A DNA stretch of 64,000 nt from Onthophagus taurus (taxonomy: Eukaryota; Arthropoda; Insecta; Coleoptera; Scarabaeidae). This document shows positions 33,663 through 62,701 of this stretch, piece by piece (within the stretch, counting starts at the first letter, position 1; every line of letters begins with the position of its first letter). The DNA lies in the NCBI RefSeq assembly GCF_036711975.1, contig NW_027248941.1, positions 2,356,001-2,420,000 on the forward strand, written 5' to 3'. Position numbers and translations under genes: made by a program. The notes under the pieces are model-generated. The model was not told the origin of the DNA, made no database searches, and saw only the letters and a list, made by a program, of their open reading frames with translations.

Positions 33663-34075
33663 AAAAATAGAGGTCGCTTGCGGCTGAGGCATTACACTAT
33701 ATCTTGTCAATTTAGTGTTGATCAGCATAATCAGCGACCTTGGCATAATCAGATCAAAGACTGTGCTCTGTTTTTGTTTTACCTTATTAAGGCTCTTATC
33801 CTGATCAACTGTATGCCTCGGCCGCAAGCGACCTCGGCATAACCAACTCAGGCGAAGTGTTTTTGTTTTATGAAGGTGAGGTTGCTTCCGGTTGAGTCGC
33901 AACGATATATATTGCCCAATATAATATTGATATGGCATGAATCATATTGCCTCAGTCAAGGCTTTGCAGTATGGGTTGTAATATTATATCTATGTAGAAT
34001 GAATTGGACTGCCTCGGCCGCAAGCGACCTCGGCTTAACACGATATCTACTTTTTCCGATCTGCTGAGGTCTTCG
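33663..34075. repeat. CCGAGG core repeat, first cluster
   Basis: Holds GAGGTCGCTTGCGG (33670), GCCTCGGCCGCAAGCGACCT (33813) and the same text again at 34010, in both orientations, separated by AT-rich spacers. Same family as the larger arrays at 41.33 and 47.23 kb. Confidence 0.8.
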
Positions 34076-41329: not shown

Positions 41330-42165
41330 TATTAAGCCGAGGTCGCTTGCGGCCGAGGCAGTATAATTCATGCCATATCACTGTTATATTGACCGGAAGC
41401 AACACAGTACGGTTGTTACCACATTGATACAATTTTGAACAATGCATATTATTGCGACATCGGCTTAATAATGCAAAAGCACTCTCTTTCATCTGGTTAT
41501 GCCGAGGTCGCTTGCGGCCGAGGCATACTGTTAATACCACACCGACACAATTTTAACAACACATATTGAAACGCCTCGCCCGCAAGCGATCTCGGCTTAA
41601 TAAGGCATAACCCTCTTTTTGATCTGGTAATGCCGAGGTCGCTCGCGGCCGAGGCATACGGTTATTACCATATCAATACAATTTTCAACAACATAATATA
41701 TTGTAACGTAATCAGATCAAAAAAGTGGTTTTGCCGTATTAATCCGAGGTCGCTTGCGGCCGAGGCATACGGTTGTTACCACGTCAATACAATTTTCAAC
41801 AACATTTATTGTTGCGTAACCAGATCAAAAAAGTGGTTTTGTCGTATTAATCCGAGGTCGCTTGCGGCCGAGGCATACGGTTGTTACCACATCAATACAA
41901 TTTTCAACAACATTTATTGTTGCGTAACCAGATCAAAAAAGTGGTTTTGCCGTATTAAGCCGAGGTCGCTTGCGGCCGAGGCATACGGTTGTTACCACAT
42001 TTATACAGTTTTCAACAATACATATTATAGCGCCTCGCCCGCAAGCGATCTCGGCTTAATACGGCAAAAATCTGTTCTTTTGATCTGATTATGCCGAGGT
42101 TGATACCGTACCAATATTAAATTAGTAAAACATAACGTAGCGCCTCGGCCGCAAGCGACCTCGGT
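41330..42165. repeat. CCGAGG core repeat, second cluster (unit about 119 bp)
   Basis: GC-rich cores of type CCGAGGTCGCTTGCGGCCGA at about 41338, 41504, 41633, 41746, 41852 and 41961, with inverted cores at about 41573, 42034 and 42142. Between them lies AT-rich text with CAATACAATTTTCAACAACA and GTAACCAGATCAAAAAAGTG. The three best units (41746-42000) are spaced 106-119 bp. A 152-codon frame through it is a by-product of the repeat. Confidence 0.9.
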
Positions 42166-42320: not shown

Positions 42321-43164
42321 TACAGGGTGTTTCTGAATTGATGCGAAAGATTTTAAGAGGTGGTTTTTCAGCAAAAGTTAAGGGGTGTCTTTCAAAATCT
42401 GCAACGTTCTTATCTCTTAACATTTTACAACTAACAAATTGTTACTTTGATCACAAAAAATAAAACAATGCTGAGATGAATTTGACATAACTTCTTTCCT
42501 TTGACTAATAATAACCAATCTGAATTAATTCACTTGAGAGTGTGTATTATTCTATTTTTTTGTAATCAAACTGTAGGAGAAAATGTTAAGAGACAAAAAA
42601 AGTTGTGTATTGAATCACTCTATGTTGTAGTACACGTATGAAATGTTCTGATGCAAGGTATGATAAGGGTTGATTTTTCAGTCCCTTGTAATAACATTTC
42701 CGGGTTATTAATAATAATAATAATTCATTTATTGACTTGATAACAAAAGCCTAATTCAAACATATAATAACATATCAAAATAAAAATACTATTAATTAAA
42801 TCAAGTCAACTCGGACGATTATCAGAGGAGGTTTAGATAAACAACTCTGATTTTCACAATCGCCCGAAAATACTATAAATAAGAAGAGAATAGAAGAAGA
42901 CAAGAAAACAGATAAATCGAGAAAACACGCAAAACGTGACAAAACACAAAAGAACAAAAACAAAATTGTTTTTTCAAGCAACATCAAAAAACAATTTGTA
43001 ATTTAAATGCCAAATTTCATTCTTCTAAATTCCTCCATAGTTAATTTATTAAATAAAAGCAACTTTTTTCCTTAACTTTAGAGTGCTGTAACTCGGTGGG
43101 GGAAGGGGTTTTGAACAAAAAGTTATATGAAAGATCTTTCGCATCAATTTAGAAACACACTGTA
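42321..43164. mobile_element. non-autonomous mariner-type element
   Basis: Starts TACAGGGTGTTTCTGAATTG, followed by ATGCGAAAGAT, and ends ATCTTTCGCATCAATTTAGA followed by AACACACTGTA. The ends are inverted over about 35 bp, with related words further in (the AAAGTTAAGGGGTG side facing GGGGTTTTGAACAAAAAG). The middle has no transposase, only AT-rich text with an ATAATAATAATAATAA run. Confidence 0.7.
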
Positions 43165-43840
43165 TAATCCATATTTTCAAGAAAGAACATCACCAGGAAG
43201 CTAATTGCAAGTTTTGTATTCAAATCGGTTCTATTCTTCATTGTACTTGGAAAACGTACGTTCTGTCAAATATAAGAAGAAGTTTTAAACGTCAAAAATT
43301 TTTAAGTAAATATTTTGGGATATTACGGTATTTGAACTGTAGGTGAAGTGATATCAGTAAACATAGTGTTATAAATTGTTTTTGAAGATTATATAAAGCT
43401 GGATTTTCCACGTCAATGAAGAACTAAGCTGTTTTAAATAGATGACTTTAATCTTCTAATTCTAAGCTATCTTTAAATCTCGTTTTCTTCTCGTCATATA
43501 CAACACCATATGATTATTAATCGCATTCGCAAAATATATTAAATGCGTTTTTATTTCGGATATAACCTCAAAATGTTTATAAAAATCGTTCGGATAATCC
43601 CTAAAGATAACCTTATTTTTTTTTTATTCATGTATAAATTTAGGTTTATTTTTACTAACATAAGTTACTAAGTTACGATCCAATTTTCGACCGGTAGTGA
43701 CCCCTTCGATTTGAACAAAAAAAAACCCGGACTTCCAGTGGCGGTGCGTCCGCATAAAAAATCAAAAAAGGAAATAAATAAGTCCCCCCCACCACCTAAT
43801 TCTTTTCATCAACACTTTTAAAAATAGCCTCTCTTCTTCT
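43165..43840. other. non-coding, AT-rich
   Basis: No gene or repeat recognised. Confidence 0.25.
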
Positions 43841-44873
43841 CTCTTATTCTTTGCGTATATTTTCGGTGCGTTTTCAGTGCGTCTCGTTGGATTGTGCAGA
43901 TCGACCACCACCCGCCGCCTCTGATTCTCATCCATCGGGAATAGGAGAAGGAGGAGGCGGCGGCGGTAGAGAGGGCGCTGCACTCAAACGTCCGTTGCAC
44001 TTGTTTTTAAGGCTACGTTGCCAAATTTCGTTGTAAATCACGAAAAAATGTTGCGATAAAAAATTTCGATTCCAAAAAAAATTTTTTTTAAGTTTTAAAA
44101 TAAAAAAATTGTTTTAAATATTTTTTGTAAAATTGCATAACGGTTTTCAACGGCTTGAATATCGAAGCGAAAACGAATCGAGGTTCTGTGTGTGTAGAAC
44201 GATTCCGCACACTCACTCACACATTTACGGACCAAGTGCGTATAGGGCATTACACTCCGCCAAGTTGGCTGCTGCTGCTACTGCGTGCAGCTGCATTTCA
44301 ACCTTGACAGTGTGCGGAGGGGTCCTGTTTTGGAACGGTTGCTAAGCAACCGCGACTAGACACGTTGAGGCGGAGTCTCGGATTGAGGCCACGCCTCGTT
44401 ACGCGATTCCCGACGACGTCGTCGTCGTTGTCGCAGTCTTTCGTTTCACAGACTATACGATCCGCTTTTTATATATATATTTTTAATAAATCACATTAAT
44501 TTTTTGCGACATTTTTAATTGATTAATTTTTTTTTTAATTTAGTGTGCGTGTGGTTTTAATTTGATTTAAATTTTTTTATTGTGTTTAAACGGAAATAAA
44601 TTCGTAGTGAAAAACATTCCTAACCTCGCACAAGCTTACATCGCGTATGTGTCTACTTTAATCTAATCTGAGGTGGCCGGGGAACGCGATAAACGCCTTC
44701 TAAAAATAACGTTTAAAAATGCGCACGACCTCCGCGAACAGGAGAGCAACAAACCTTGTGTGTCAATTGTTTTTTTTTTTGTTTTTGTTATTTATTTTTT
44801 TTTTTTTGGTGGATTAAAATTGAAATTTTTGTTTTATTAATTTAAGAAAAGGAATAAAAAATAAATAAAAAGG
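43841..44873 (+). promoter_or_regulatory. GC-rich region with an X-box palindrome and a splice donor; proximal candidate promoter of the let-7 complex
   Basis: Two CpG-rich patches (43850-44010 and 44130-44460) sit about 1.1-1.7 kb upstream of mir-100. They contain the perfect 15-bp palindrome GGTTGCTAAGCAACC (44337-44351), similar to an RFX X-box; AGAGGGCGCTGCA (43970-43982), a CTCF-like core; GACGACGTCGTCGTCG (about 44413); and TCGCAGTCTTTCG (about 44431), which could be an initiator. A donor GG|GTGAGT lies at 44874. No coding frame is recognised. Confidence 0.4.
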
Positions 44874-45549
44874 GTGAGTTGGTTAATTAATTAATTAATA
44901 TGATCAACGCGTTTGAAGTTAAGAAATCAACGCACACTTAATCGTTAAAGGTGGCGCTGTTAATTCATGGTGAAATGAGCACCAAATCGCGCGGATTTAA
45001 TCCAAATACCTTTGATCACCGACGCATCCTCGATCAAAAAAGCACCAAAACCGAATTAACCTCAAAAATCGTATCTAATCTTTGTAGGGGGCGTTACGCG
45101 ACCTAACCTCATTCTTTCTCTTTCTTTATCTCTTATTTCATTTTTTTTCTATTCTATCTTTTTCTTTCTCTTATGGGGTCCACGGCCGCCCCGATGACAT
45201 AACATCTCTCTCGAAACGAAGACGACGACCTCTGGTGGAGACCTAGGTTTCGCGAGAGTTTCTCGTATGTTCGTCGTCGTTGTTGGTAGGTAAAAGAAAA
45301 GAGAGACAACCACGAGGAGGAGTGAGAGGAATAAACGTGGCAACACCGCGTCTGTCTCGTTGCGTCGCAGTCGCCCTTGGAATCCGCGATCGCCGGGTCA
45401 CAGACCGCCGGTCGGCCTCCGAACCGAATATTTCCGAAAATGAACGAGGCAAGATCGGATTTATTCAAAAAAATCAAACATAATAAAAAATTAATGCCTA
45501 AATAAATATAATTAATTCGTTAATATTGATTATTATTTTTCTTCAATTT
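44874..45549. other. non-coding leader immediately upstream of mir-100
   Basis: Contains AGGTGGCGCTGTT (44949-44961) and another GC-rich patch at 45170-45450 (CGGCCGCCCCGATG, CGGGTCACAGACCGCCGGTC). Probably part of the primary microRNA transcript or its promoter. The open frames here overlap on both strands and show no domain. Confidence 0.35.
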
Positions 45550-45551
45550 TT

Positions 45552-45628
45552 ACAATAACAATAACCCGTAGATCCGAACTTGTGTTAATTTAAAAGGTCA
45601 CAAGTTCGTATGTACCGGGAATTGTTGT
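45552..45628 (+). ncRNA. mir-100: mir-100 precursor
   Basis: The 5' arm 45563-45584 reads AACCCGTAGATCCGAACTTG plus TG, identical to the conserved animal miR-100 mature sequence. The 3' arm (about 45598-45620, CACAAGTTCGTATGTACCGG) pairs with it, and the outer ACAAT and ATTGT extend the stem. It is the first of three hairpins within 410 bp, in the same order as the Drosophila let-7 complex. Confidence 0.97.
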
Positions 45629-45690
45629 GGTGAAAACATCAACGTTTTCTCAAAACTTAAAGCCTGAAGATTCCGTTTTAAGAAGAAATC

Positions 45691-45778
45691 GGTGTGTTTT
45701 GGATTGAGGTAGTAGGTTGTATAGCAAAATATACGTCTAGGAGTACTGTACGACCTGCTAACTTTGTCCAATCACACC
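45691..45778 (+). ncRNA. let-7: let-7 precursor
   Basis: The mature arm starts at 45705: TGAGGTAGTAGGTTGTATAG, then C. The first 20 bases match the invariant animal let-7; base 21 is C where U is usual. The star arm 45746-45767 reads CTGTACGACCTGCTAACTTT plus GT. Flanks GGTGTG (45691) and CACACC (45773) close the hairpin. let-7 times late developmental transitions and in insects is raised at metamorphosis with its cluster partners. Confidence 0.98.
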
Positions 45779-45881
45779 AGAAACCATCGAATCCGCAAAA
45801 ATCCCAATTTTATGTAACCAAAACAAATAATAATAAAATTAATTTGTATTTCGTTAATTTTTTTTTTTCAAATTTTCTTTA

Positions 45882-45962
45882 AAACCTTCATTTCCCTGAG
45901 ACCCTAACTTGTGATGTCATTTTAAACTCTCACAAGCTAGCGACTCGGGTATTGATGGTTTG
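45882..45962 (+). ncRNA. mir-125: mir-125 precursor
   Basis: The 5' arm 45893-45914 reads TCCCTGAGACCCTAACTTGT plus GA, identical to insect miR-125 (lin-4 family). The 3' arm (about 45931-45951, ACAAGCTAGCGACTCGGGTA) pairs with it, and the flanks AACC and GGTT close the stem. It is the third member of the cluster and lies 0.19 kb after let-7. Confidence 0.97.
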
Positions 45963-46761
45963 AGTTAACTTCTTGTATAACTAAAAGATTAACCGAATAA
46001 TATGTTAAGTTGTGTGTTGCACTAATTCTTGAAAACGAAGCGTTCTTCGGGGGTATTGATTTTCGAGAAACGCATGGCGGGTCAGCACCGGCTGCGCAAT
46101 AACACGCGTACCAGCACGTAGTCGTTGCAACCCGACAATGTTGGTTACGTTGGGTTAGGTTAGGAACTCGATCGATAATTATACACTATGTATTTGATTC
46201 ACCAAAATCATCATAAATTTATTTCATTTCATACCTTCATAATTTTCTGTTAATATCTTAGAATTTTCGGCTAAACGCTTGGATACAGTGAAAGAAGACC
46301 CCAAGTTAGGCTAGGGATGATATTTAAGACTATGTTGAGGAAGGCCAATCCAAAAACATATGTTCCACCATCTTACATAACATCTCTTACAAACGAGTTC
46401 TGTTGCGCGTATTCTTTCAGTATATTGAGAAAAGTCTGGTTAATATCTGGGTTTTGACTAATTATGCCGAAAATTATGGTGGAAATGTATGATTTTGCAT
46501 AATTAAGGTTTGTGTGGGCAATTTTATGCCCACACAAAAATTTATGTCTCACCCATAAACAACCTCGAAAAATATTCGTCCACAGCGCTCGAAATGTATT
46601 GGGATTTTTCGACAAAAAATTTGAAAAGTGCGATTTTACTGCTTGGAACTCAAACTTAATACAGAACGGAGAATATAAGATTTTGCCTAATTAAGCCAAG
46701 GACTCTTGACGCCGAGACACAGCAGCAATACGAGATCCAATTCTGAATGGATTTTGTGTTG
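45963..46761. other. region downstream of the let-7 complex
   Basis: A GC-rich patch at 46060-46150, then AT-rich unique sequence. An 11-bp perfect stem TTGTGTGGGCA/TGCCCACACAA lies at 46510-46537 with a 6-base loop. No protein gene recognised. Confidence 0.3.
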
Positions 46762-46935
46762 TTAGGTTGGTCGCAAAATAATTTCGTTTTTTTATGAGAA
46801 TGTAAGACGATTTTCTTATGGCAAGTAAATATTTTATTGAATTTATATAATCAAATATCTTTGGCCATCTTTCTGACAGTAGCTCACCAAATTCTTGTTC
46901 TTTGAAGCCATATGTTGAGTATTCAAATTAAACCT
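46762..46935 (-). mobile_element. mariner remnant
   Basis: TTAGGTTGGTCGCAAAATAA at 46762 is a typical mariner terminal repeat. The minus strand next to it reads FKEQEFGELLSERWPKIF, like the C-terminus of mariner transposases (LPERWxKVI). Only one end remains. Confidence 0.55.
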
Positions 46936-47229
46936 AGACGTTTCAAATGATGTCTTGGTTAGCTTCTACTGGCAGTCCAGAACATGGTGCAGCTTCAATG
47001 TCAAAATTGCCGCAATACATCTTCCCTATACGCAAATATATTTCGATAGGTTAATAATAAAGAAATGCCGAAAATCTTGCTTTTCACTTCGTACTCAATC
47101 GAAAGCAACAATACGAAATCAATAGAAATTTATCACAAGCCATATATTTAATGATTATGCGGCTTTAGTGTGACGTTGGCTGTGAAGAAATACATTTAAG
47201 TCCTTTCTTAGGAAAAAAAAACGCACAAC

Positions 47230-50130
47230 CTAATAATTCTAGCACTTCAGCCGAAAGCAACCTCGATTTAACATAAAGTTTACCAGCCTGGGCCGTAAAC
47301 GATTTCAGCATAATTAGCTGAAATCTAAGTATAGCCGAGGTTGCTTGCGTTCGAGGCACAGTGTAATAACGCCACAAATGTATAGCCTGCAATATATGAT
47401 TCAATTTTGACTACATATTGTATTAATTGAAAGATCTATGACTTCTCTGATTATGCCGAGGTCGCTTGCGGGCGAGGCGCAAAGAGTAAATCTTGTAAAA
47501 ATTGTAATATTTCAGCCTAATGGCTAAATTTAGTGTGGACCACTTTTGTACTATTATGGTATTAACTAACCCCTTGGCCGCAGGTAACCTCGATTAAAGT
47601 AGGTATGAATCAGTTTTCAATGATTTTGATATTAACTAATACCACGGCCGATCAACTTGGTATCAATCAGTTTTCGGTATGTTATGGTATCAATTGTTTC
47701 GACTCGATCGCAAGCAACCGCGGCTAAGGTTGGAGAAAAAATCTATGATTAAGCCGAGGTCGCTTGCGGACGAGGCGCAACAATACGTGAGCCAGTTCTG
47801 AGTATATCTTGTATTAATGAAATGCCTCGGCCGCAAGCGACCTCGGCTAAACTAGGTAAGAACCAGTTTTCAATGTTTTTGATATTACCTAACTGCCTCG
47901 GCCGCAAGCGACCTCGGCTAAACTTAGTATCAATCAGTTTTGGGTTGTTATGGTATCAATTGTTTCGCCTCGATCGCAAGCAACCTCGGCTGAGGTTGGA
48001 GTGAAAAATGTATCACTTCACGGATTAAGCCGAGGTCGCTTGCGGACGAGGCGCAACAATACGTAAGCCAGTTCTAAGTATATCTTGTATTAATGAAATG
48101 CCTTGGCCGCAAGCGACCTCGGCTAAACTAGGTAAGAACCAGTTTTCAATGATTTTGATATTACCTAAATGCCTCGGCCGCAAGCGACCTCGGCTAAACT
48201 TAGTATCAATCAGTTTTGGGTTGTTATGGTATCAATTGTTTCGCCTCGATCGCAAGCAAGCTCGGCTGAGGTTGGAGTGAAAAATGTATCACTTCACGGA
48301 TTAAGCCGAGGTCGCTTGCGGACGAGGCGCAACAATACGTGAGCCAGTTCTGAGTATATCTTGTATTAATGAAATGCCTCGGCCGCAAGCGACCTCGGCT
48401 AAACTAGGTAAGAACCAGTTTTCAATGATTTTGATATTACCTAACTGCCTCGGCCGCAAGCGACCTCGGCTAAACTTAGTATCAATCAATTTTGGGTGGT
48501 TATGGTATCAATTGTTTCGCCTCGATCGCAAGCAACCTCGGCTGAGGTTGGAGTGAAAAATGTATCACTTCACGGATTAAGCCGAGGTCGCTTGCGGACG
48601 AGGCGCAACAATACGTGAGCCAGTTCTGAGTATATCTTGTATTAATGAAATGCCTCGGCCGCAAGCGACCTCGGATAAACTAGGTAAGAACCAGTTTTCA
48701 ATGATTTTGATATTACCTAACTGCCTCGGCCGCAAGCGACCTCGGCTAAACTTAGTATCAATCAGTTTTGGGTTGTTATGGTATCAATTGTTTCGCCTCG
48801 ATCGCAAGCAACCTCGGCTGAGGTTGGAGTGAAAAATGTATCACTTCACGGATTAAGCCGAGGTCGCTTGCGGACGAGGCGCAACAATACGTGAGCCAGT
48901 TCTGAGTATATCTTGTATTAATGAAATGCCTCGGCCGCAAGCAACCTCGGCTAAACTAGGTAAGAACCAGTTTTCAATGATTTTAATATTACCTAACTGC
49001 CTCGGCCGCAAGCGACCTCGGCTAAACTTAGTATCAATCAGTTTTGGTTTGTTATGGTATCAATTGTTTCGCCTCGATCGCAAGCAACCTCGGCTGAGGT
49101 TGGAGTGAAAAATGTATCACTTCACGGATTAAGCCGAGGTCGCTTGCGGACGAGGCGCAACAATACGTGAGCCAGTTCTGAGTATATCTTGTATTAATGA
49201 AATGCCTCGGCCGCAAGCGACCTCGGATAAACTAGGTAAGAACCAGTTTTCAATGATTTTGATATTACCTAACTGCCTCGGCCGCAAGCGACCTCGGCTA
49301 AACTTAGTATCAATCAATTTTGGGTGGTTATGGTATCAATTGGTTCGCCTCGATCGCAAGCAACCTCGGCTGAGGTTGGAGTGAAAAATGTATCACTTCA
49401 CGGATTAAGCCGAGGTCGCTTGCGGACGAGGCGCAACAATACGTGAGCCAGTTCTGAGTATATCTTGTATTAATGAAATGCCTCGGCCGCAAGCGACCTC
49501 GGCTAAACTAGGTAAGAACCAGTTTTCAATGATTTTGATATTACCTAACTGCCTCGGCCGCAAGCGACCTCGGCTAAACTTAGTATCAATCTTTGATTAT
49601 ATATAATATGGATTGAGCCAACGAGAGAGATAGCTTGTGCAAGGTGATCGAACCGAGATAGACATAGAAGCGTACTGCCATATAATGGGTGTACTGATAG
49701 AAGTGAGATAGATATAGAAGCGTACTGACATGTAATATATATATCTTTGTTACACTTTCACATTATCGCTTTCCATCTGCGTCTATTCACCTTGAGCAAC
49801 ATTTTTGTTGGTAGATATATTCAGTTAGCTCAATCCATATTATATATAATCAAAGGTATCAATCAATTTTCGGTGGTTATGGTATCAATTGGTTCGCCTC
49901 AATTGCAAGCAACCTCGGCTGAGATTGGAGTGAAAAATCTATGACTTCACTGATTAAGCCGAGGTCGTTTGCGGACGAGGCGCATAAATACGTGAGCCAG
50001 TTCTGAGTATAACTTGTATAAATGAAATGCCTCGGCCGCAAGCGACCTCGGCTAAACTTGGTATGAGCCAGTTTTGGGTAGTTATAGTATTAACTAATGC
50101 CTCAAGCGACCTCGGCTAAGTTTAAAATGG
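47230..50130. repeat. CCGAGG core repeat, third cluster, with a 276-bp higher-order unit
   Basis: From 47822 to about 49590 a block repeats at exactly 276 bp (starts 47822, 48098, 48374, 48650, 48926, 49202). Each block has four modules of about 69 bp, each headed by a core: two GCCTCGGCCGCAAGCGACCT modules, one GCCTCGATCGCAAGCAACCT module, and one inverted module (CCGAGGTCGCTTGCGGACGA). Copies differ at only a few bases. The edges (47230-47820 and 49860-50130) carry older, diverged units. Sixty-codon frames on both strands are repeat artefacts. Confidence 0.95.
49591..49855. mobile_element. 265-bp MITE with perfect 28-bp TIRs and 8-bp target duplication
   Basis: Starts CTTTGATTATATATAATATG (49591) and ends with the exact reverse complement; 28 bases match at each end (49591-49618 and 49828-49855). 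The target duplication GTATCAAT is perfect (49583-49590 and 49856-49863) and is part of the satellite unit it interrupted. Inside are two related ATAGAAGCGTACTG words. An 8-bp duplication fits the hAT, P or Merlin superfamilies. No coding sequence. Confidence 0.95.
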
Positions 50131-50524: not shown

Positions 50525-51520
50525 TTATCCAAAAGACGTTAATAAATTTTGAAATTGTCCTAACAAATTCATTATCGGATTCTTATTATTACTATTATTA
50601 GTATTCGGTTTTCCTTGATCCATCATCGTCGTACAATTATACATATTTCTGATTTTTCGTATATCACCAACACTAAATCCGTCTCTTTGTCCGATTCGAA
50701 CGTTGCTTCTTTTCGGCACAATCGTCGGTTTTTGATTTGCGCTAAACGCGTACGCCGAATAATGCATAACTGAATTGTAATCGTAAGGAATTCCGTATCC
50801 AACAGCGATCTCTTTCGGAACTTTGGCAAAATTAAAATCGTGACCTAAAAAAATCCAATTAAAAATAAATTTAAACTAAAATATTTATAAGATTATACCA
50901 TTTTGAATATTTTCCCATTTAATATCGACGAAATTATCTCGTTCGTAACGGGTTTGTTCGTGATTAAAACCTACAGCGTGCATTAATTCGTGTACGGGTG
51001 TCCCTAAAGTTCCTAAACACCCGGGACTTTGTAAGTTTACTTCTTGCATACCACCGATTTTTCCAACACTCGACCAACATCCCGTTCTTGTGTTGATGAT
51101 GTTGATGTAATCGACATCCTCAGGTTGGCGTCGGCGGAATCTTATACAGGTGTTTTCGTGGTATTGACGCATTGCTTCGTAAATCATATTTAAATCGCCC
51201 TCAGAAAATGGGCCGGTGATGACGTAGGGGATGATTCCAGCATCCCATTTCGATCCGAAATCAACCAAACCATTCTTTGATTTCCGATTGATTAAGATAT
51301 CGCCTTCTAAGTAACCCGAGAGCTCTTCGGGGTTCGCCAAATTCGTTTTCGGGGAGTAATCATTGATGATGTCACCGACTTTTTCGTTCGGAGACCCGAA
51401 CATTTTTGCACCATAATCCAAAATTAAATTGTTTAAAACATTTTCTTGAATCGGGTGGGAAAGAAGAATTTGGAGTTGAGATGTTACGATAACGGCGAAT
51501 AGATGGCGTTGCGAAAACAT
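50525..51520 (-). CDS. astacin-family zinc metalloprotease
   Basis: Two exons, 51520-50899 and 50844-50525, joined in phase 1 across a 54-bp intron; 313 residues. A hydrophobic start (LFAVIVTSQLQILLSH) is a likely signal peptide, followed by a propeptide and, from about residue 87, the astacin domain. The zinc site is HELMHAVGFNHEQTRYERD (His177, Glu178, His181, His187) and the Met-turn is SVMHY (232-236). TRTGCWSSVGKIGG is the usual astacin block. After the domain comes a short Asn-rich tail (NTNNSNNKNP) with no EGF or CUB domain, as in small secreted insect astacins. All catalytic residues are present. It is divergent from FANCL, about 0.7 kb away. Substrate unknown. Confidence 0.93.
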
Positions 51521-52236
51521 TTTTTTAAAACACTTTTGAACACTGAAAACTAACTGATTGCACTTTTTTGTAACAAAGCGTTTTTATACTAAGCGATTCA
51601 AGATCGCGCGATGTTAATATGACCTAAATTTTAATAATTCCGAAATGATAACGAATAATAATGTTATTTTTTTAAATGTGTAATTGCGGTTCTTCCTTGA
51701 AAAATTGTTTGCTTTTTGATAAAGTGGTCGTTATGTCTTTTAAACGTATTCTAGGAAATCGTTAAAAAGATTGTAAAAATAAAATTATCATTTTTAACTT
51801 AACCTTAAAATTTCGTTCAAATTTTAATTAAACGTCAAAATTGAAATGTCAAAATAATTATTTTGAAATTAATTTTGGGATTTTTTCCCAAATAATCAAA
51901 AAAATAGGCCTTTTTAATCAAAATTGAATCGTAATCGGTTTGGATTATCAAAATTTCTTATTATTTTTAATTAATTTTTAATTTTCCCGCTCACCACATC
52001 AAACATAACCCAACTTTTTCTTTCACATCTTCTTCGACGCAAAAAGAATTTTCTTATTAATAACAACGAATAAATAGCGAATAAATACGGGAATCATCAA
52101 CGAAAACGTTACGAACATCTCAAGGTAAAAAAAATCGTAAAATAAAGGTATTTATTTTTATCTTTTTAATTTTAAGGTTATGTTTTATTTTTCTGAGATA
52201 AACTCAAGGTAATTTTGTGTTTTTTTTAGGTAAAAG
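51521..52236. promoter_or_regulatory. shared upstream region of the astacin gene (-) and FANCL (+)
   Basis: AT-rich. Near FANCL there is CTCAAGGTAAAAA (about 52119), a possible donor of a short leader exon, and AGG|TAAAAG just before the ATG as an acceptor-like site. An AAGGTTATGTT word lies at 52174-52184. Confidence 0.35.
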
Positions 52237-55200
52237 ATGACCCAACGAAGCGATTTGGACTTATTATTGAAATACCCGATGGTTTTACCAAAAAATTACT
52301 CAAAATACGAATATTCCGGTTACATAAAAGTCAACGAAAACGATTATGAGGTTAATTTCACCATCGAAAATAAAAAGTATATATTAAAACCAACCGACGA
52401 TTTAAACCCATTTTGGAATAAAATTAAAAAATTAAGCGAAATTGATTATTTCTCGCCCGTCGATTTCTTGGACACATTAACAGAGTGTATTAAAAAGAAC
52501 TCAAAATTAGAAAAACCCGAGGATTACGTTGATTTATACCGGAAAGTTCTACGAGAATACTCCGAATTAAGACAATTCTACATCAACATTGATTATGCTC
52601 AATTATCGAAAGATTTAAAAACAATACGGGTGGTTCATTCTGATGAGAAAAGTCGAAAACACCCCATTTTAATTGAAGTTGACTACGAAGCGCCTCCTAA
52701 CAAAATATTTAAAATAACTAAATGCGATCTTCCTGAATACCAAGAGAGTCTTGTTAAACCTCCAGATGGTTCTTTACTAACAGTTTATGAGAATTATTTA
52801 AAAATCGTTAATAATAATAACCTGCAAGCACTTTTTGATATTTTAGATGAGATTGATAAGAATTGTTGGGTTTTAGAGCCTGAAAATCCAACAAGGAGGG
52901 ATGTTTCAAGAAGAATTATGCTTGGTAAATACAAAATAATAAATAACAACCCAACCCCTCACCACATAGTGTGCCTTTCTTATTATTAATACAATTCGTG
53001 ACATATTTAGGATAACCACTTCCAAGATTTATGAGTCAAATCGTCATTTGACTAATTTTTGCAAAACTGAATGTTTAGATTATTGTAAATAGTGAGAAAA
53101 AGTAAGTCGCGTTGTAATAAATATATAGATGAAAGGTAAGTATCTATTCAATGATTTGAAGTAAGGTAAGTATCTATGTTGTATTTCTGTGCTCACAAGT
53201 CTTGAAGAACCTCTAGATTTTGAAGAAGAACAATGGGACAGTGAGAATGATTTGCCCCTAATAAATATACTGGTTCATAGAAATAATACCAGATGAGATA
53301 GAATCAAGATTTACCGAAAGATATAATAAACATGCTCAAAACTTGCTCACACCAGAAATATGACAGCAGAAAAAATTCTATTAAGTCTATTATACAGTTG
53401 CCTTCTACAAGAAGCTATTGGAAATCTTCCATAGCTATTCCTGCAAGTTGTGCCACTATGTCTTGTAACATATTTGAAAAAATCGAACAACTACATCTCA
53501 GAATGAGCAGCAATTCTCGTAAACCTAGCGGAAACGATACCTAGAAATCAGAACTATAAGTTATATTTTAACAACTGGTTTACAAGTATAAACCTACTCA
53601 TATATTAAAACAAGGTATTTTACCTCTTGATACTGTTAGAAAAAATCAAATGTAGATGGCGTAGTCACAACTATAATATGTCGGAAGTCAAAATGTGTCT
53701 TAATACAACACGCCCGAGTAGTGTAAGCATTTACAACTCCTACATGGGAAGAGTTGATCTCTTGGGCTCAATATTAAAATTTTCTTAGATCTAATGTGTG
53801 TAAAGCATGGCTTTTATGGAGAAGAAGATTTGCTGATTCAGAAATGTCTTTGCCACTTTCTGAATTGAAACTAGAAATAGCTAAAGTGCTAACAAAATCA
53901 TTTACAACCTAAACTGGATCTAAAAAAAGAAAGAAATTCCTACCCAAGACTGATGAACGCCAACGGTGTAAATATCCACAATGTAAAGGAAAATTCTTTG
54001 TAATGTGCACAAAATGTAACGTTCACCTTTGTTTCAATAAAGATCGAAACTGTTCTTTTAATTTTCATGTAACATATTTAACACATTCATGTTTAATTAC
54101 AGTAAATCTTCTTGTTAGTTTTGCTTATACAGTACAGGTGTTCTAAATTCGTTGTCCGCATAGGCATGACCACGTTTTTCGAGAAACTACTAATGCCGAA
54201 CTCTCTAAACAGCTATCGTCTTTTTCTTTTAAAACAACACTTTCAAACAAGACCAACAATATATAAATCGGTTGAATGGTGCGATATTATCTAAGCTTCT
54301 ACTAAATGATGTTGTCAAAGTTATAGCTCATCGTCTAACTTTTTGAGATTAGCACTTTGCCTATAAGGATTTTTCCCCAAACCTCTAGGCCTTAACATTG
54401 TCGAGATACAGCCGCTCCGTACCCTTAACATAATGGCTGCCACGTGATACATACAGGGTGTCTCAGCGAGACCGGTCATTAGACGTTTCTGGGGTTCTGG
54501 CGAAAATAAAAATTTGAGAATTCAGACTTAAGTATTATCAATTACGATCTATTCGTCTAAAATATTTTCAGATTTCTTGCACTTCCGGTTATACCGGAAG
54601 TCGCCACCAACTTTATTTTTTTAAATGGAACACCCTGTATATTTTTACATATTTGGATTTGTCTGTTTTCAAGGTTTATAAAAAACTTTACTTTTTGCAA
54701 TTTGATTCGTCCGTTCTCGAGTTATTCGAATTTTTCTAGAAAAATCTGCTCCAGCAGACATTTGTTCAAAAAATCAGAGAACACTCGATTTTTGGGATAT
54801 AAATTTAGGATTGAGAACATGCTTAAGCAACATGATGGAGTATGTTTTGGTGCCGAGAACTGCTGTCTAGAAGGTTTGGTCACTTTACTATGGCACGTTA
54901 ACTTTTCAAAATTTGGAAGTACCATAACTTCATTTTCTTAAATGGCACCCCCCATATTTTATTTCTTAGTCGTCTTCGGTGTCTCATTCTACATCTTTTA
55001 TATCCCATATGTCCCATACCTAATATTAATAGTTTGGGAGATAATTAGGGTTTTTTGAAAAATGCACACATATTATATGGATATTTAGCCTAGTGTGCCA
55101 TGAAAAACAAGCCTTCTCAATGAGTTCTTGCCAAAGACTCACTTGTTTACGTCACTTGATGCATGTGAGCTAATAATTATCTGTTATGTCCCTTAATTAA

Positions 55201-58102
55201 TATTACTGAAACGAGTTAAAATCTATAACAATAACGAAAATAATATTTACACAAATCAAGAAATTCTTAATTTATTTTTTATGCATGAAAAGCGCGACAT
55301 CTTTTTTCAATCTTCTTTGGCAGCTCGAATTGAGGTGTTGGGACTGGGCTCGAAATAAGCCAAGGTATTCACCTCTTCCGTTGCATTATCTACTACATTT
55401 TTTGGTCAGTTTAACACGTGATTAACTCGTCCAAAATACAAAAAATTTGCTTCTATTCTTCTAAATTTACCTTTTGTCAACGGAGATAAATGTGGACAAT
55501 TTTCATTAAACATTCTGCAAGTTCTACTAAGAACTTTGTCGCACTTTTCGTGCACAAAAAATAAATTATGGATTTCTTCATTTGTATAAACATTATTTAC
55601 GTTATTAATATCCATTTTAACTGGTTTTAGACTCAAAAGCATCAAACAACGTAAATCAGACTTTGACGTTTATCAATAAGTCATTAAACATTTGTTTTCC
55701 ATGGCACACTAGGTTAATATCGATATGATATGTGAGCATTTTTCAAAAAACCCTAATTATTTCTCAAACTATTAATGTTAGGCATAGGACATATGGAATA
55801 TAAAAGATGTAAAATGAGACGCCGAAGACAACTAAGTAATAAAATATGGGGGGTGCCATTTAAAAAAATGAAGTTATGGTGCTTCCAAACTTCGAAAAGT
55901 TAACGTGTCATAGTAAAGTGACCAAACGATCTAGACAGCCATTCTCGGCACCAAAACATACTCCGTCATGTTGTTTAAGCATGTTCTGAATCCGAAATTG
56001 ATATCTCAAAAATTGAGTGTTTTATGATTTTTTGAACAGAAACAAAGGCAGAATCAAATTGCAGAAACTAAAGTTATTTATAAACCTTCAAAACAGACAA
56101 ATCCAAATATGTAAAAATATACAGGATGTTCCATTTAAAAAAATAAAGTAGGTGGCGACTTCCGGTATAACCGGAAGTGCTAGAAATCTGAAAATATTTT
56201 AGATGAAGAGAACGTAATTGATAATACTTAAGTCTGCATTCTCAAATTTTTTGTTTGGCCAGAACCCCAGAAACGTCTAATGACCGGTCTCGTTGAGACA
56301 CCCTGTATATGAATGTCACTTGTCTGTTTTCATTTTCATCTTTGCCTCTCCTAATTCTTCCATTGTTATCTCTTCATTTGCTATGTCTGTAGTGTCTTCC
56401 CTTATCTCATCTTTTCTTCCCTCCTTCGTTATTTATGTGCGTTTTCTATCCTGGAATTTTGTAAAATGTCTCTTGTAGTTGTCTTTATCTGGTTGTTTTT
56501 ATTTTTAACGGCTTTTGATTCCAGAATTTCCTGTTATTCGATCTGTATGTTTCACCTAAGTTTGTTCCGAACTCTTCTCAACTTTCCTTTTTCGCATCCT
56601 TTACCATATTCTTAGCTACATCTCTGTTCGTTCTATACTTTGCTCTTCTTATTATATCTTCTTGTTAATTGACTGTCGGACCTCTTCATTCCACCAGTGT
56701 GTTCTCTTTGTCTGATTATTATGTTTTCTCATTCCTCATCTCTTTAAATTCTCTGTTTGTTCTAGTTTCTGAAATTCGTTGTTTGTTTTTTCTTGGTGTT
56801 TTAGTCTTCCTTCCTCCTGCCTTAGTTTATGGATGTTTATTTAGTGTTGGTTTTCATCTTCTCTCTTTCGATTTCTATATTATTAATAGTCGCCATAACT
56901 AGTCTGAGGTTGGTGGTTGGTCCCCGCTTCTGCTTTAGTCTTTACCTCCTCGACTTTGTTTTAGAGATTCCGGGTGTATGTGATGTAATCAATAATACTC
57001 ATTTATCTTGCCTCCTCTGACTTCACATAGTGTTTTTAATCAATAAGTCGTCTATTTGACAAAATAACAGTATTCTTTGCCCATTTTTATTCATCACTGC
57101 CTCTCCCTGATCACTATATTCTCCTATACTACTTCCTCCCTTGTGTATTATAATTACATCCTCTCCTTGTTTTATGGATTCCGATTCCAGAATTCTTGAA
57201 TTTACTGGTGCATACTTATTTACTCTTTTATTTGGTTCCTCTGTTATAATTATTCCTACTCCCTCCTTGCTCCATATATTTTCTTGGATTCCTGAAAAGT
57301 ATAGATTATTTATAGATTATTCTCATTATTTCTATCCGAAACATCATCTCCTCCATTATTTCCTTTTCCTTTCCCATTAAAGTTGTAATATTCCACGTAT
57401 AAAGCTGGAAACATCTTTATGACTTTCCTATTTTCTGCCATTTTCATCCTCAGTAAAGTAAGTTCAGTCATCAAATCCAACCTTTATGTGAATTTTCTTA
57501 GAGTAGTCCTTATCTGTCCATATATTCGTTCCTTTCAACTCTTAAATTTTTTTTTAGATGAAAAAGTCTCGATCGTGATTACTTTCAACCCGAAGGATGT
57601 TTCGACGATCCCCCAAATCAAATTCTTAGGCCCGGTGGGGTTAACCAAGAAATACGTGGACTTATTAAACAAAAATTGTGTTAATTACAACCCACACGGC
57701 GACACAATCTTGGAATTATACAATTTATTAGGTACATAAAGTTTTTTGGGAATTATTTAATTTTAAAAGAAATAAAAAATTTTCCAAGGCAACCAACGAA
57801 CGTTTTGGAGGAGGAATTGCTCGTCAACGATGAAGAGTGCTGTATATGTTTTTCGAAGTGGTTAGAAGGAAAAGCGCCGGAAGTTCAATGCGAGAATGGA
57901 TCGTGTAGGCAACGATTTCACTTCGACTGCTTATACCAGGTTATTTTTTCAATTATGGTTAAAATAAAAATAATATTTATGTTTTTAGTGGTTAAGATCA
58001 TCGAGTTCGACCACGTTTTATTACGAAATTTACGGAAATTGTCCAAATTGCGAAAAGAAAATCCGATGTCCATTTCCAGCTGAGACAAACACAGAAAATT
58101 GA
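52237..58102 (+). CDS. Fancl: Fanconi anaemia group L E3 ubiquitin ligase
   Basis: Exons 52237-52924, 57558-57731, 57770-57939 and 57989-58102 give 381 residues in one consistent frame (human FANCL has 375). The family adds monoubiquitin to FANCD2 in DNA cross-link repair. Exon 1 holds the ELF and double-RWD region (LRQFYINIDYAQL, HPILIEVDYEAPP, YENYLKIVNNNNLQALFDIL, DEIDKNCWVLEP, then PTRRDVSRRI). The C-terminal RING/PHD-like finger begins near Cys311: CCICFSKW, CENGSCRQRFHFDCLYQ, then WLRSSSSTTFYYEIYGNCPN and CEKKIRCPFPAE. Intron 1 is 4.6 kb and full of transposon remains; intron 2 is only 38 bp. All zinc ligands are present, so the gene looks functional. Confidence 0.93.
52925..53179. other. 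first part of FANCL intron 1
   Basis: AT-rich. A short tandem GGTAAGTATCTAT repeat lies at about 53135-53175. Nothing else recognised. Confidence 0.3.
53180..54080 (+). mobile_element. piggyBac-type transposase remnant
   Basis: Broken frames on the + strand include EEPLDFEEEQWDSENDLPL, NYKLYFNNWFTSINLLIY (near 53550), TRPSSVSIYNSYMGRVDLLG (near 53708), and at the end FLPKTDERQRCKYPQCKGKF followed by CTKCNVHLCFNKDRNC. The last part is the C-terminal cysteine-rich finger of piggyBac transposases. Many stops and deletions; dead. Confidence 0.8.
54452..56307. mobile_element. mariner-type element with inverted arms of about 650 bp and only the N-terminal transposase domain
   Basis: TA-flanked ends TACAGGGTGTCTCAGCGAGA (54452) and GAGACACCCTGTA (to 56307). 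The arms match from 54452 to about 55110 against about 55685 to 56307. The 575-bp centre encodes on the minus strand (55645-55406) TNEEIHNLFFVHEKCDKVLS, then RTCRMFNENCPHLSPLTKGK, like the helix-turn-helix domain (DUF4817 type) that precedes mariner-like DDE domains. No DDE domain remains. Confidence 0.82.
56320..57480 (-). mobile_element. degenerate LINE in FANCL intron 1
   Basis: On the minus strand the sequence is purine-rich and reads, in shifting frames, an endonuclease-like part (FSGIQENIWSKEGVGIIITE) and then WWNEEVRQS, RRAKYRTNRDVAKNMVKDAK, then KESWEEFGTNLGETYRSNNR and ITMEELGEAKMKMKTDK. This is the usual linker between endonuclease and reverse transcriptase in insect LINEs. Many frameshifts; dead. 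Confidence 0.65.
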
Positions 58103-58169: not shown

Positions 58170-59036
58170 TTAAAACACAAAAATGTTTTTATCTTGAACA
58201 CTTTTCAAATAATTTTTGATACAACCACTAAAATTTTCACCCCCACAAATCAAAACTTGAACATTTTCACTTTTATTCTTTAAAAACTCCCCAATTTGAG
58301 TCTCCCCCAATCGATTTTCATGCACGATCTCGTTATATTTACAAAAACCTTTTTTAGAACCCCCCAAAAACACCTCGTAATCAAAATTCCAATACTTTTT
58401 TAACTCGTATATCTCATCATGCAAAAAAATCTCATTGCAACAATAAAACAACTTAATAAAACCCTCAAAATTCTCATCATTAACCATTTTAATGATCACC
58501 GAGTAAATAGGCGCAATCCCCGTGCCTTGCGCTATCATTAAAACATCCCTAAAATCGTAACTAATTTTGAAATCTCCATAAGGGCCCCTCCAAAGAGTTT
58601 CACTCCCAATGTTTAATTTATTAATTATTTTCGACATCATCCCACCTTCGTATAACTTAACAAGTATCCTAAATTGTAATCGACCCAAATTGTCGCTTAA
58701 TAAAGGGGTGTAAGCTCGCGTAAAAGATTCCGATGTCGACTTTAAACTTGATTTCATCAAAAAATGTTGGCCCGGCTCAAAATATAAATTCAAATCATCA
58801 CTTTGTGATTGTCCCGAATACTCAAAAATAATCAAAAATGAATTTTCGGTGTGTTTTAATTTAGTAATTACCCTAAAAGTTGAATAAGAAGTGTCCGAAA
58901 TGCAATTTTTTAACATTTTTAGGTTATGTTGCCCCAATTTAATTTTTCTAAGTTTTTCTTCGTACACGTCGAATATGCAAGGGTTACAACCCGAGTTGCA
59001 ACAATCTTCTTGATTCGGTGGCCCGATTAAATCCAT
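58170..59036 (-). CDS. Cyb5rl: NADH-cytochrome b5 reductase-like protein
   Basis: A single-exon gene of 288 residues. The N-terminus has the small Cys motif CCNSGCNPCIFDVYEEKL (12-29), found in oxidoreductase-like N-terminal domains and in CYB5RL. The reductase part follows: the FAD-binding site FTRAYTPL (Arg107-Thr110) and GGMMSK (131-136), GPYG (151-154), and the NAD(P)-binding GTGIAPIYSV (171-180) and CGGENFSG (264-271). The usual CGPP loop is CGGE here, seen in the CYB5RL branch rather than classic Cyb5r. Electrons from NADH pass through FAD to an unidentified acceptor. It converges on FANCL (67 bp between stops) and is divergent from RpS3A (141 bp between starts). Confidence 0.88.
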   Translation of the reverse strand: MDLIGPPNQEDCCNSGCNPCIFDVYEEKLRKIKLGQHNLKMLKNCISDTSYSTFRVITKLKHTENSFLIIFEYSGQSQSDDLNLYFEPGQHFLMKSSLKSTSESFTRAYTPLLSDNLGRLQFRILVKLYEGGMMSKIINKLNIGSETLWRGPYGDFKISYDFRDVLMIAQGTGIAPIYSVIIKMVNDENFEGFIKLFYCCNEIFLHDEIYELKKYWNFDYEVFLGGSKKGFCKYNEIVHENRLGETQIGEFLKNKSENVQVLICGGENFSGCIKNYLKSVQDKNIFVF

Positions 59037-59177
59037 TTTTTAATTAATTAATTTATTTCGTACAATAAATTTAATATTAAAAAAAAAAAATTAGGTTGGT
59101 ACTAAAAGTGACGTTTGACAATTATAATTTTATCGGCGCCAACTTCATGTTGTTCTTTCTATACTCGCTTAGTGAAG
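59037..59177. promoter_or_regulatory. bidirectional promoter of the CYB5RL-like gene and RpS3A, with a TOP start
   Basis: Only 141 bp separate the two start codons. On the RpS3A side a pyrimidine tract CTTTCT at about 59155 resembles the 5' TOP start of ribosomal protein mRNAs, 23 bases before the ATG. Confidence 0.6.
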
Positions 59178-60619
59178 ATGGCGGTAGGCAAGAATAAGGG
59201 TCTCTCGAAAGGAGGCAAAAAAGGCGTTAAAAAGAAGGTGTAAGTACTAAATATTAATCTAAATTTGTTCGTTAAAGCAGTTTTTATTCGCGCGTTTAAA
59301 TAATTTTTGGATTTATCCCCGGATGGTGTCGAAAAACTCCGATGAAAATTTGTTGTTTTTCACCGACATGTGTCAAAAAATTTTTTTTATATCATTAAAT
59401 TAATTATTATTCACTTTAACATTAACTATAATAATTATTAATCGTCTCATATCTTATTAATTAATAATTCAAGTACTTATTTGATTTGGAACAATTTTAA
59501 ATGTTGACAGTTTGAGGTTATGTTTGGGGATGAACCCCAATTTCTTTTAAAATGATGACACACTCAGCTCGCTTTGAGTTAAAAATCGATGAAGAATCAT
59601 TGTTCCCTATTATTTTCATTCTGAACCCCCCAAAAAATAACCTAATTTTTTCGTGAAAAAGGAAAATCTTACGATATTCGTATTTTCCAGAGTAGACCCA
59701 TTCACCCGTAAAGATTGGTACGATGTAAAAGCCCCATGCATGTTCACCAAACGCCAAATCGGTAAAACTTTGGTGAACCGTACCCAAGGAACTCGAATCG
59801 CATCGGAAGGACTCAAATTCCGCGTCTTCGAGGTATCAACAGCTGATTTGGAAGATGATACCGATGCGGAGAGAGCGTATCGTAAATTTAGATTGATCGC
59901 GGAAGACGTACAAGGAAGAAATGTGTTAACGAACTTCCACGGGATGGATTTGACCACGGATAAATTGAGATCGATGGTGAAGAAGTGGCAGACGCTTATC
60001 GAGGCTTCCGCCGACGTTAAAACCACCGATGGATATCTTTTGAGGGTATTTTGTATTGGATTTACCAACAAAGACCAACAATCGACCAGAAAAACTTGTT
60101 ATGCCCAACATACTCAAGTGCGACAAATTAGGAAAAAGATGGTCGAAATTATTACAAAGGATATCACAACAATTGATTTGAAGGAAGTTGTAAATCGTTT
60201 AAGACCAGATTCGATTGCTAAGGATATCGAAAAAGCTTGTCAAGGAATTTATCCTTTACATGATGTTTATATTCGCAAGGTATTAAAAAAAATTAATTTA
60301 ATAATATTAATAATAATAAGTTACATGATGAGAATCTCAGCTCGCTTTGAGTGATTCAATGAAGAGTATTTGTTCCCTAATTATTTTAATCTGATTAAAA
60401 TCTTAATTAAACAAATTTGACGTTGACATTTGAGGTTATGTATTAAAAAAAAAATTTTTGTTTTAGGTTAAAGTATTGAAAAAACCACGTTTTGAGCTTT
60501 CTAAGTTGCTTGAGTTACACGGGGACGCTGGAAAAGGGGGTACCACTGAAGTTGGGGAGGTGGGAAGCTCGGCGGATCGACCGGAAGGTTACGAACCACC
60601 AGTTTTAGATTCGGTGTGA
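59178..60619 (+). CDS. RpS3A: 40S ribosomal protein S3a (eS1)
   Basis: Exons 59178-59239, 59691-60279 and 60467-60619 give 267 residues (human RPS3A has 264). It starts [20 protein letters not shown] and continues [20 protein letters not shown], then [20 protein letters not shown], the standard family sequence. It ends [12 protein letters not shown] structural protein of the small ribosomal subunit. The starting methionine follows a short TOP-like leader. Both introns hold a box C/D snoRNA, as is common in ribosomal protein genes. No damage is seen. Confidence 0.98.
59548..59628 (+). ncRNA. box C/D snoRNA in RpS3A intron 1
   Basis: Box C TGATGAC (59553-59559), box C'-like CGATGAAG (about 59587), box D CTGA (59621-59624). 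Between them are CTCAGCTCGCTTTGAGT and TTGTTCCCTATTATTTTCAT, each of which recurs in the intron 2 copy. Size and position inside a ribosomal protein intron fit a snoRNA. The target was not determined. Confidence 0.75.
60320..60399 (+). ncRNA. box C/D snoRNA in RpS3A intron 2, paralogue of the intron 1 copy
   Basis: Box C TGATGA (60326-60331), box C'-like CAATGAAG (about 60357), box D CTGA (60391-60394). It shares CTCAGCTCGCTTTGAGT and TTGTTCCCTA-TTATTTT with the intron 1 copy while the rest of the two introns differ. Vertebrate RPS3A introns also host C/D snoRNAs (SNORD73 family). Orthology is possible but not shown. Confidence 0.75.
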
Positions 60620-61416: not shown

Positions 61417-62477
61417 TTAATTCCCCTCTGGAAATATTTGACGTAACAAATTTTTATAAATCGCATTCGCTTCCTAAAACAATGAATTATATTAATAACT
61501 CCGTTTTTATTAATTCAATTAAAACAACTCACTATATATTCATCTTTATTCTCTGTAAATTCAATATGGTTTTTGAGAAACTCCTCAAACTCTTCGTGTC
61601 CACGACACACGGAAATTCCCGATTCATTATCCTCAATAAGCGTTTGCAAAAGCATTCCACAATCTTCAAAAGACGTTTGATACTCGTTCATTAAAATCGT
61701 CACGATTTCGTTGATGTAATCCAAAGAAATAATTTTTTCTTTTATATTTCCGTCCATGTTGCACAAAGCGACCAAAAGAAAAGCAGATTTTTTTCGGGTG
61801 CGTTCATCCATGTTTAATAAAGGCTCCTTTATATTCTCGAAACCTTGTAACCCATCGAATAAATGCAAACCAGGCGGATTTTCCCTTATTATACAACTAA
61901 TGGCGTAAATGACTTTAGCAACAACATTAAAATCGGTCTCCTTTAACATTGGGACTAATATTTGAAGAAAACCATGATTAATTGCAACATTTTGACAAAA
62001 TATATTGTTTTGGCATAATTCTGCAAGTAAATCGGCTGCTCGTAACTTTAATTCGGAATGTTTTGACTCTAAACAAGGCCGGATTATGCTAAATCCGCCG
62101 ATTTTATAAAAATCGTTTGCTATATCGATATTATCGACGTAATCGCATATCGTTTCAAACGCTTGGATGTATTCGGTAACATCATCAACCTCAGAAACAT
62201 TCCCAACGTTATCAAACGTTTTAATTTGATTAACCAAAATCTCAATTACATCGATTGTCATTGATTTGAGCGCGTCTTCTAGAAATTTTCGTTTTTCTTC
62301 TTCCATTGGGGCGAAATTTGACGGGCCAGCCCCATCTTCACGCCGAGTCGCTTCCACAGCAAACCTTAATAAACCTTCTAAGCTTGTCGGTTGTTGTCTC
62401 GGTTGATTCGAAGGTGCATTTTCAACTTCGGATGTTAACATTAACGATTGTTGAGGTTTTTTTAAAACGCCAGGCAT
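61417..62477 (-). CDS. Hspbp1: Hsp70-binding protein 1 / Fes1-like nucleotide exchange factor
   Basis: Exons 62477-61533 and 61473-61417 (59-bp intron, phase 0) give 333 residues ending LLRQIFPEGN. The first exon alone would run on to a false stop at 61515; the GTGAGT donor and CATTGTTTTAG acceptor support the spliced end. The N-terminal LEGLLRFAVEAT is the family start, followed by armadillo-like helices: IQAFETICDYVDNIDIANDF, GGFSIIRPCLESKHSELKLR, AADLLAELCQNNIFCQ, and KKSAFLLVALCNMDGNIKEK. The family binds the Hsp70 ATPase domain in the cytosol and releases ADP. Its start lies 224 bp from the divergent gene at 62702. Confidence 0.92.
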
Positions 62478-62701
62478 TTCAATTGATAAAAAAAATCTTG
62501 CAAAATTAAGTTTGTGAGTTTAAAGGTTATGTTGTTTTCTAGAAATGTCAAAATGTGACGATGTCGATAAAAAAGTGCGTTTTTGATGTCGGTAATTAAA
62601 AGTTTAGAAGTGTCATTTTGATTTATTCAAAAAATGTGATAAATTTTAAGTGTTTTTTTTTAAATTAATTTACTTTTTTGTTCTTAAAAGGTTCATTTAA
62701 G

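Follow-up and report, generated by a model that had tools for sequence, protein, structure and literature searches.

Sequence analysis of a compact let-7 complex and of nearby box-bearing arrays in Onthophagus taurus

A 64-kb stretch of the Onthophagus taurus genome (contig NW_027248941.1, C16:2356001-2420000), hereafter the window, was analysed within an assembly of 290,825,966 bases in 33 contigs. Three microRNA hairpins, mir-100, let-7 and mir-125, lie in this order on the + strand within 403 bp of the window (45556-45958), and the starts of their 5p sequences are spaced by 142 nt (miR-100 to let-7) and 188 nt (let-7 to miR-125). In window coordinates, the hairpins are:

45556-45628, + strand: mir-100 hairpin, 5p at 45563-45584, 3p at about 45601-45622; RF00104, 63 bits; -34.5 kcal/mol; single copy
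45699-45771, + strand: let-7 hairpin, 5p at 45705-45725 (C at nucleotide 21), 3p at about 45746-45767; RF00027, 49.1 bits; -42.0 kcal/mol; single copy
45886-45958, + strand: mir-125 hairpin, 5p at 45893-45914, 3p at about 45930-45952; exact 22-mer; -27.5 kcal/mol; single copy

A complementary 3' arm follows each of the three 5p sequences, and the mature let-7 carries the family marks GAGGUAG and UUG given as the criterion in PMC1976426. By chance, each of these 20-22-mers would be expected at most 1.4e-7 times on the two strands of 64 kb. Each hairpin stretch was folded against 200 shuffles, none of which folded as well as mir-100 (z -6.15), let-7 (z -6.27) or mir-125 (z -4.21). The joint fold of the 431-nt RNA at 45540-45970 kept all three stems (z -7.86), and none of 100 shuffles was as good. 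The original prediction was that all three microRNAs are readable with both arms and together form a complete, compact let-7 complex; both parts agree with these readings, and the folding check that it proposed was passed by every hairpin.

The 290.8-Mb assembly has a single copy of the exact 15-nt let-7 core TGAGGTAGTAGGTTG, of the 20-nt mir-100 core at up to two mismatches and of the mir-125 22-mer at up to three. A profile search of the assembly with RF00027 gave one place (57 of 35,092 first-look candidates scored). The RF00104 search (59 of 21,141 candidates scored) gave four, namely mir-100, a weaker antisense match of mir-100 and two places on contig C10. The latter, at 7324892-7324964 (+) and 7415202-7415272 (-) (L033 and L032), are about 90 kb apart; one contains what we take to be the miR-10 core and the other presumably a miR-993-like 3' arm. 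The RF00104 search recovers relatives, and the method is therefore able to find them. No second let-7 complex, the finding that the original prediction had named as counting against it, was detected in the assembly by core-string and Rfam profile searches.

As judged from its sequence, the region 45556-45958 is almost certainly a complete let-7 complex, old, widely conserved and ordinary. The same order and linkage of the three microRNAs have been described in other animals (PMC3763532, PMC2797818, PMC8233039), and the members, order and strand of the insect let-7 complex are all the same here. Mature miR-100 and miR-125 are identical to those in the Aedes table (PMC2797818), where mir-100 (307441-307568), let-7 (321614-321684) and mir-125 (321885-321975) share one contig; from these coordinates the Aedes cluster spans about 14.5 kb, against 403 bp here. 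In Strigamia, a stretch of at most 1 kb is reported to hold mir-100 and let-7, and no mir-125 was detected (PMC4244043); in the western corn rootworm mir-125 and let-7 are on separate scaffolds (PMC9170749). The 403-bp cluster is compact, of a known kind, and constitutes one more example of a compact, intact let-7 complex.

We infer shared transcription, processing, hormone timing and targets for the three microRNAs and, by analogy with other insects, expression of the cluster would be predicted to increase at the pre-metamorphic ecdysone pulse. In Drosophila there is a single 2,435-nt primary transcript, and a 3.3-kb fragment with three ecdysone response elements is said to be responsible for developmental expression (PMC8233039). 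In Blattella all three microRNAs increase during the last nymphal instar, at about the time of the ecdysone peak, and hormone treatment was followed by a significant rise in miR-100 only (PMC3462697).

Several results weigh against the identification as a let-7 complex. Only mir-100, matched by the Rfam mir-10 family (RF00104), reached the gathering level, so that one of the three microRNAs is over its cut-off. At permissive thresholds let-7 scored below its RF00027 cut-off of 53.5 bits (E 4.9e-9), and mir-125 scored 27.1 bits under RF00104 (cut-off 47.5) and 24.4 bits under RF03770 (cut-off 88). The antisense strands of the hairpins fold too, and in the case of mir-125 the antisense (45884-45958, - strand) folds better than the sense (-35.9 kcal/mol, z -6.62, vs -27.5 kcal/mol), so that the strand of mir-125 was assigned by mature sequence and order rather than by fold. 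The ecdysone-element consensus was at chance in the window in two scans (0 vs 0.19 expected and 1 vs 1.21 expected), and let-7 departs from its canonical form at nucleotide 21. The Rfam cut-offs are used here as a yardstick for all three microRNAs and not as the definition of a let-7 complex; the sub-cut-off scores and the antisense folding were weighed lightly because miR-100 and miR-125 are letter-identical to printed insect forms, let-7 is one base off and the order is known. A decayed or silent locus here, with the working let-7 complex lying in sequence missing from the assembly, might be proposed from the two hairpins under Rfam cut-offs and the unusual base in let-7, but is highly improbable, as the seeds and arms are intact in all three microRNAs and no further copy was found in 290.8 Mb.

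The departure in let-7, a detail passed over in the original prediction, is a C at nucleotide 21 (position 45725). The four printed forms compared, from Diabrotica (PMC9170749), Bombyx, C. elegans (PMC1976426) and Aedes (PMC2797818), have U, so that the C here differs from the printed insect let-7 complex forms. The assembly has no copy of the canonical, T-bearing 21-mer. The predicted hairpin leaves C21 without a partner; a T at this position would pair with a 3'-arm A (probability 0.98) and improve the fold by 2.2 kcal/mol. The C21 string was not found, in either alphabet, in the main texts of the papers searched (supplements lay outside the search). A 2007 survey of about 90 let-7 family members gives 16-19 as the positions close to the 3' end that can be replaced, and notes an altered last base in Bombyx; position 21 is not mentioned in its family section (PMC1976426). 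An assembly or base-call error, with a true let-7 that is canonical and a cluster otherwise as described, would account for the uniform U of the printed forms and for the retention of the facing A, yet it seems rather unlikely given that C21 is a single clean base change within a hairpin that is intact elsewhere and that insect let-7 is known to vary, with T at position 10 in Aedes (PMC2797818). A real change is the more likely explanation. If genuine, it changes the end of an RNA that is among the most conserved in animals, leaves the last base of the predicted duplex unpaired and offers a natural test of the importance of the let-7 3' end.

The arrays nearest the cluster have in common a box of 23-24 bp, GCCGAGGTCGCTTGCGGCCGAGG(C). 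At up to three mismatches, 41 places in the window match GCCGAGGTCGCTTGCGGCCGAGG, in both orientations (0.00 expected), with copies at 33816-34034, 41336-42165 and 47334-50052. The two groups flanking the let-7 complex, both outside it, are:

41336-42165, strand unassigned: upstream box-copy cluster with a 108-bp tandem array at 41628-42018
47334-50052, strand unassigned: downstream box-copy cluster with a 276-bp tandem array at 47654-49591

The box copies closest to the let-7 complex stop at 42165 on the upstream side (3.4 kb away) and resume at 47334 on the downstream side (1.4 kb away), and the 5.2-kb interval between them holds the cluster. The original prediction placed the complex between several kilobases of satellite; arrays do lie on both sides, but at these distances their closeness was overstated. 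Neither 42400-45540 nor 45962-47300 matched any other part of the window over 60 bp or more. Within the 276-bp array, an apparent inverted-repeat insertion with reverse-complementary ends was seen by eye at 49592-49860.

The constancy of the box was assessed in 17 non-randomly sampled loci of the genome (16 on contig C1, one on C2), taken from the head of 100 places listed, together with the window. These 18 sources held 259 copies with full flanks at up to four mismatches, reduced to 67 by a limit of four per source. Over the 67 copies, each of 24 positions carried 1.33-2.55 bits of information, compared with no more than 0.52 beyond them, with the reservation that copies were picked by 23 of the 24 positions, which favours those positions. 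The spacing of the box varies by locus (67, 84, 87, 90, 93 and 113 bp, among others). For the comparison of spacers, 14 of the 18 sources entered and two (L005 and L023) were dropped for having fewer than three usable units, leaving 12 arrays. Within every one of these, box identity exceeded spacer identity (0.835-0.949 vs 0.641-0.840). Across the 66 array pairs, mean spacer identity was close to random at 0.517, vs 0.491 when shuffled, and box identity 0.896; spacers were related in four pairs. In eight of nine regular uninterrupted runs, which reduce but do not remove the bias from choosing copies by the box, the most conserved 23-bp stretch started 0-2 bases from the box. The exception was L025, in which 17 of 91 stretches outscored the box.

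Genome-wide there are 1,729 exact copies of the 23-mer box (863 + 866) and none of the reversed control, and the box is present on at least eight contigs, counting the window on C16. On C1 (44.2 Mb), 81 exact copies form 28 clusters when copies up to 20 kb apart are joined. They leave a mid-contig gap of 16.7 Mb, and an inner gap as large arose in 6 of 200,000 uniform placements, in a test chosen after the list had been seen. An extended version of the box is present in 125 copies; among 100 listed, 48 were on C5, 20 on C3, 12 on C7, seven on C6, five on C1, four each on C2 and C8 and none on C4. The box string was absent from IMG/VR (0) and from the main texts of the papers searched, supplements again lying outside the search.

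Of five loci examined for inverted arms, L016 and L017 have long ones, and in L018, L023 and L005 they are short or absent. The arms of L017 (C1:6081000-6086500), at 780-1252 and 4122-4588, are 79.7 % identical. By eye, the inverted pair takes up the larger part of an intron in a carboxylesterase gene, the downstream exon of which matches PF00135, and it encloses a repeat found also in the window at 54444-56304. This arrangement would fit a foldback-like mobile element. Two of the four open reading frames (ORFs) of at least 80 aa in the pair were scanned against Pfam for a transposase and had no match, and no target-site duplication was seen at L017 in an inspection by eye. The window repeat at 54444-56304 is about 1.9 kb long, has internal inverted similarity and is 88-91 % identical to the middle of L017.

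The box is read as a putative protein- or transposase-binding box in dispersed satellite or foldback-like arrays. In the sampled arrays a short word is constant while its surroundings turn over, which suggests a binding protein. The spacers would turn over by local amplification, and a DNA-binding protein, either element machinery or a host factor, would keep the box. A tentative further step, which we hold to be possible though short of probable, is that the box is under selection as the binding site of a single sequence-specific protein, be it a host factor or a transposase, and is kept constant in many arrays with unrelated spacers on at least eight contigs; the arrays would then form a dispersed box-satellite system. 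A system of such kind was not found in the papers searched. Short conserved binding words in variable units are a feature of CENP-B box satellites and of the subterminal repeats of foldback-like transposons. The inverted arms of L016 and L017 resemble the latter. For the box here the binding protein is a prediction, and the checks on L017 gave neither a transposase nor a target-site duplication. Scattered satellite DNAs associated with mobile elements have been described in Crassostrea gigas (PMC8268682). As in that species, short tandem arrays are dispersed, with a mobile-element-like arrangement in two sampled loci here, but the Crassostrea gigas boxes are Helitron ends that flank the array, whereas here the box is inside every unit and the spacers differ between arrays. 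The box arrays beside let-7 are more unusual than the let-7 complex itself; the box repeat would matter more than the cluster, and its binding protein would be directly testable.

The flanking arrays are local copies of this dispersed box-bearing repeat and are probably unrelated to what the cluster does. That the arrays influence the let-7 complex, for instance by flanking its transcription unit as insulators or regulatory binding sites, could be imagined from the presence of box copies on both sides of the cluster (41336-42165 and 47334-50052) with none between. It is very unlikely in view of the 1,729 exact copies across the genome, which occur in clusters without a known common neighbour. 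Because that many copies are dispersed genome-wide, the presence of two box clusters close to a single locus calls for no particular explanation, and a role of the box at let-7, made unlikely by the same spread, is probably absent.

In the remainder of the window, 10 of 32 ORFs were scanned against Pfam and nine had a match, including:

10326-10682 and 16733-17044, + strand: ubiquitin hydrolase
50525-51583, - strand: astacin
52234-52989 and 57685-58083, + strand: FANCL
58170-59039, - strand: FAD/NAD oxidoreductase
59641-60354, + strand: ribosomal protein S3A
61515-62519, - strand: Fes1-like protein

The larger tandem arrays of the window are found at about 2.1-6.3, 12.0-15.0 (in parts), 28.0-33.7, 36.3-40.3, 41.6-42.0 and 47.7-49.6 kb. 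TTAGG arrays were sought in the assembly and set aside, with three overlapping matches at one place within C3 vs 11 for the reversed control. Over the whole 64-kb window, the CpG observed/expected ratio is 1.25 and the GC content 32.5 %.
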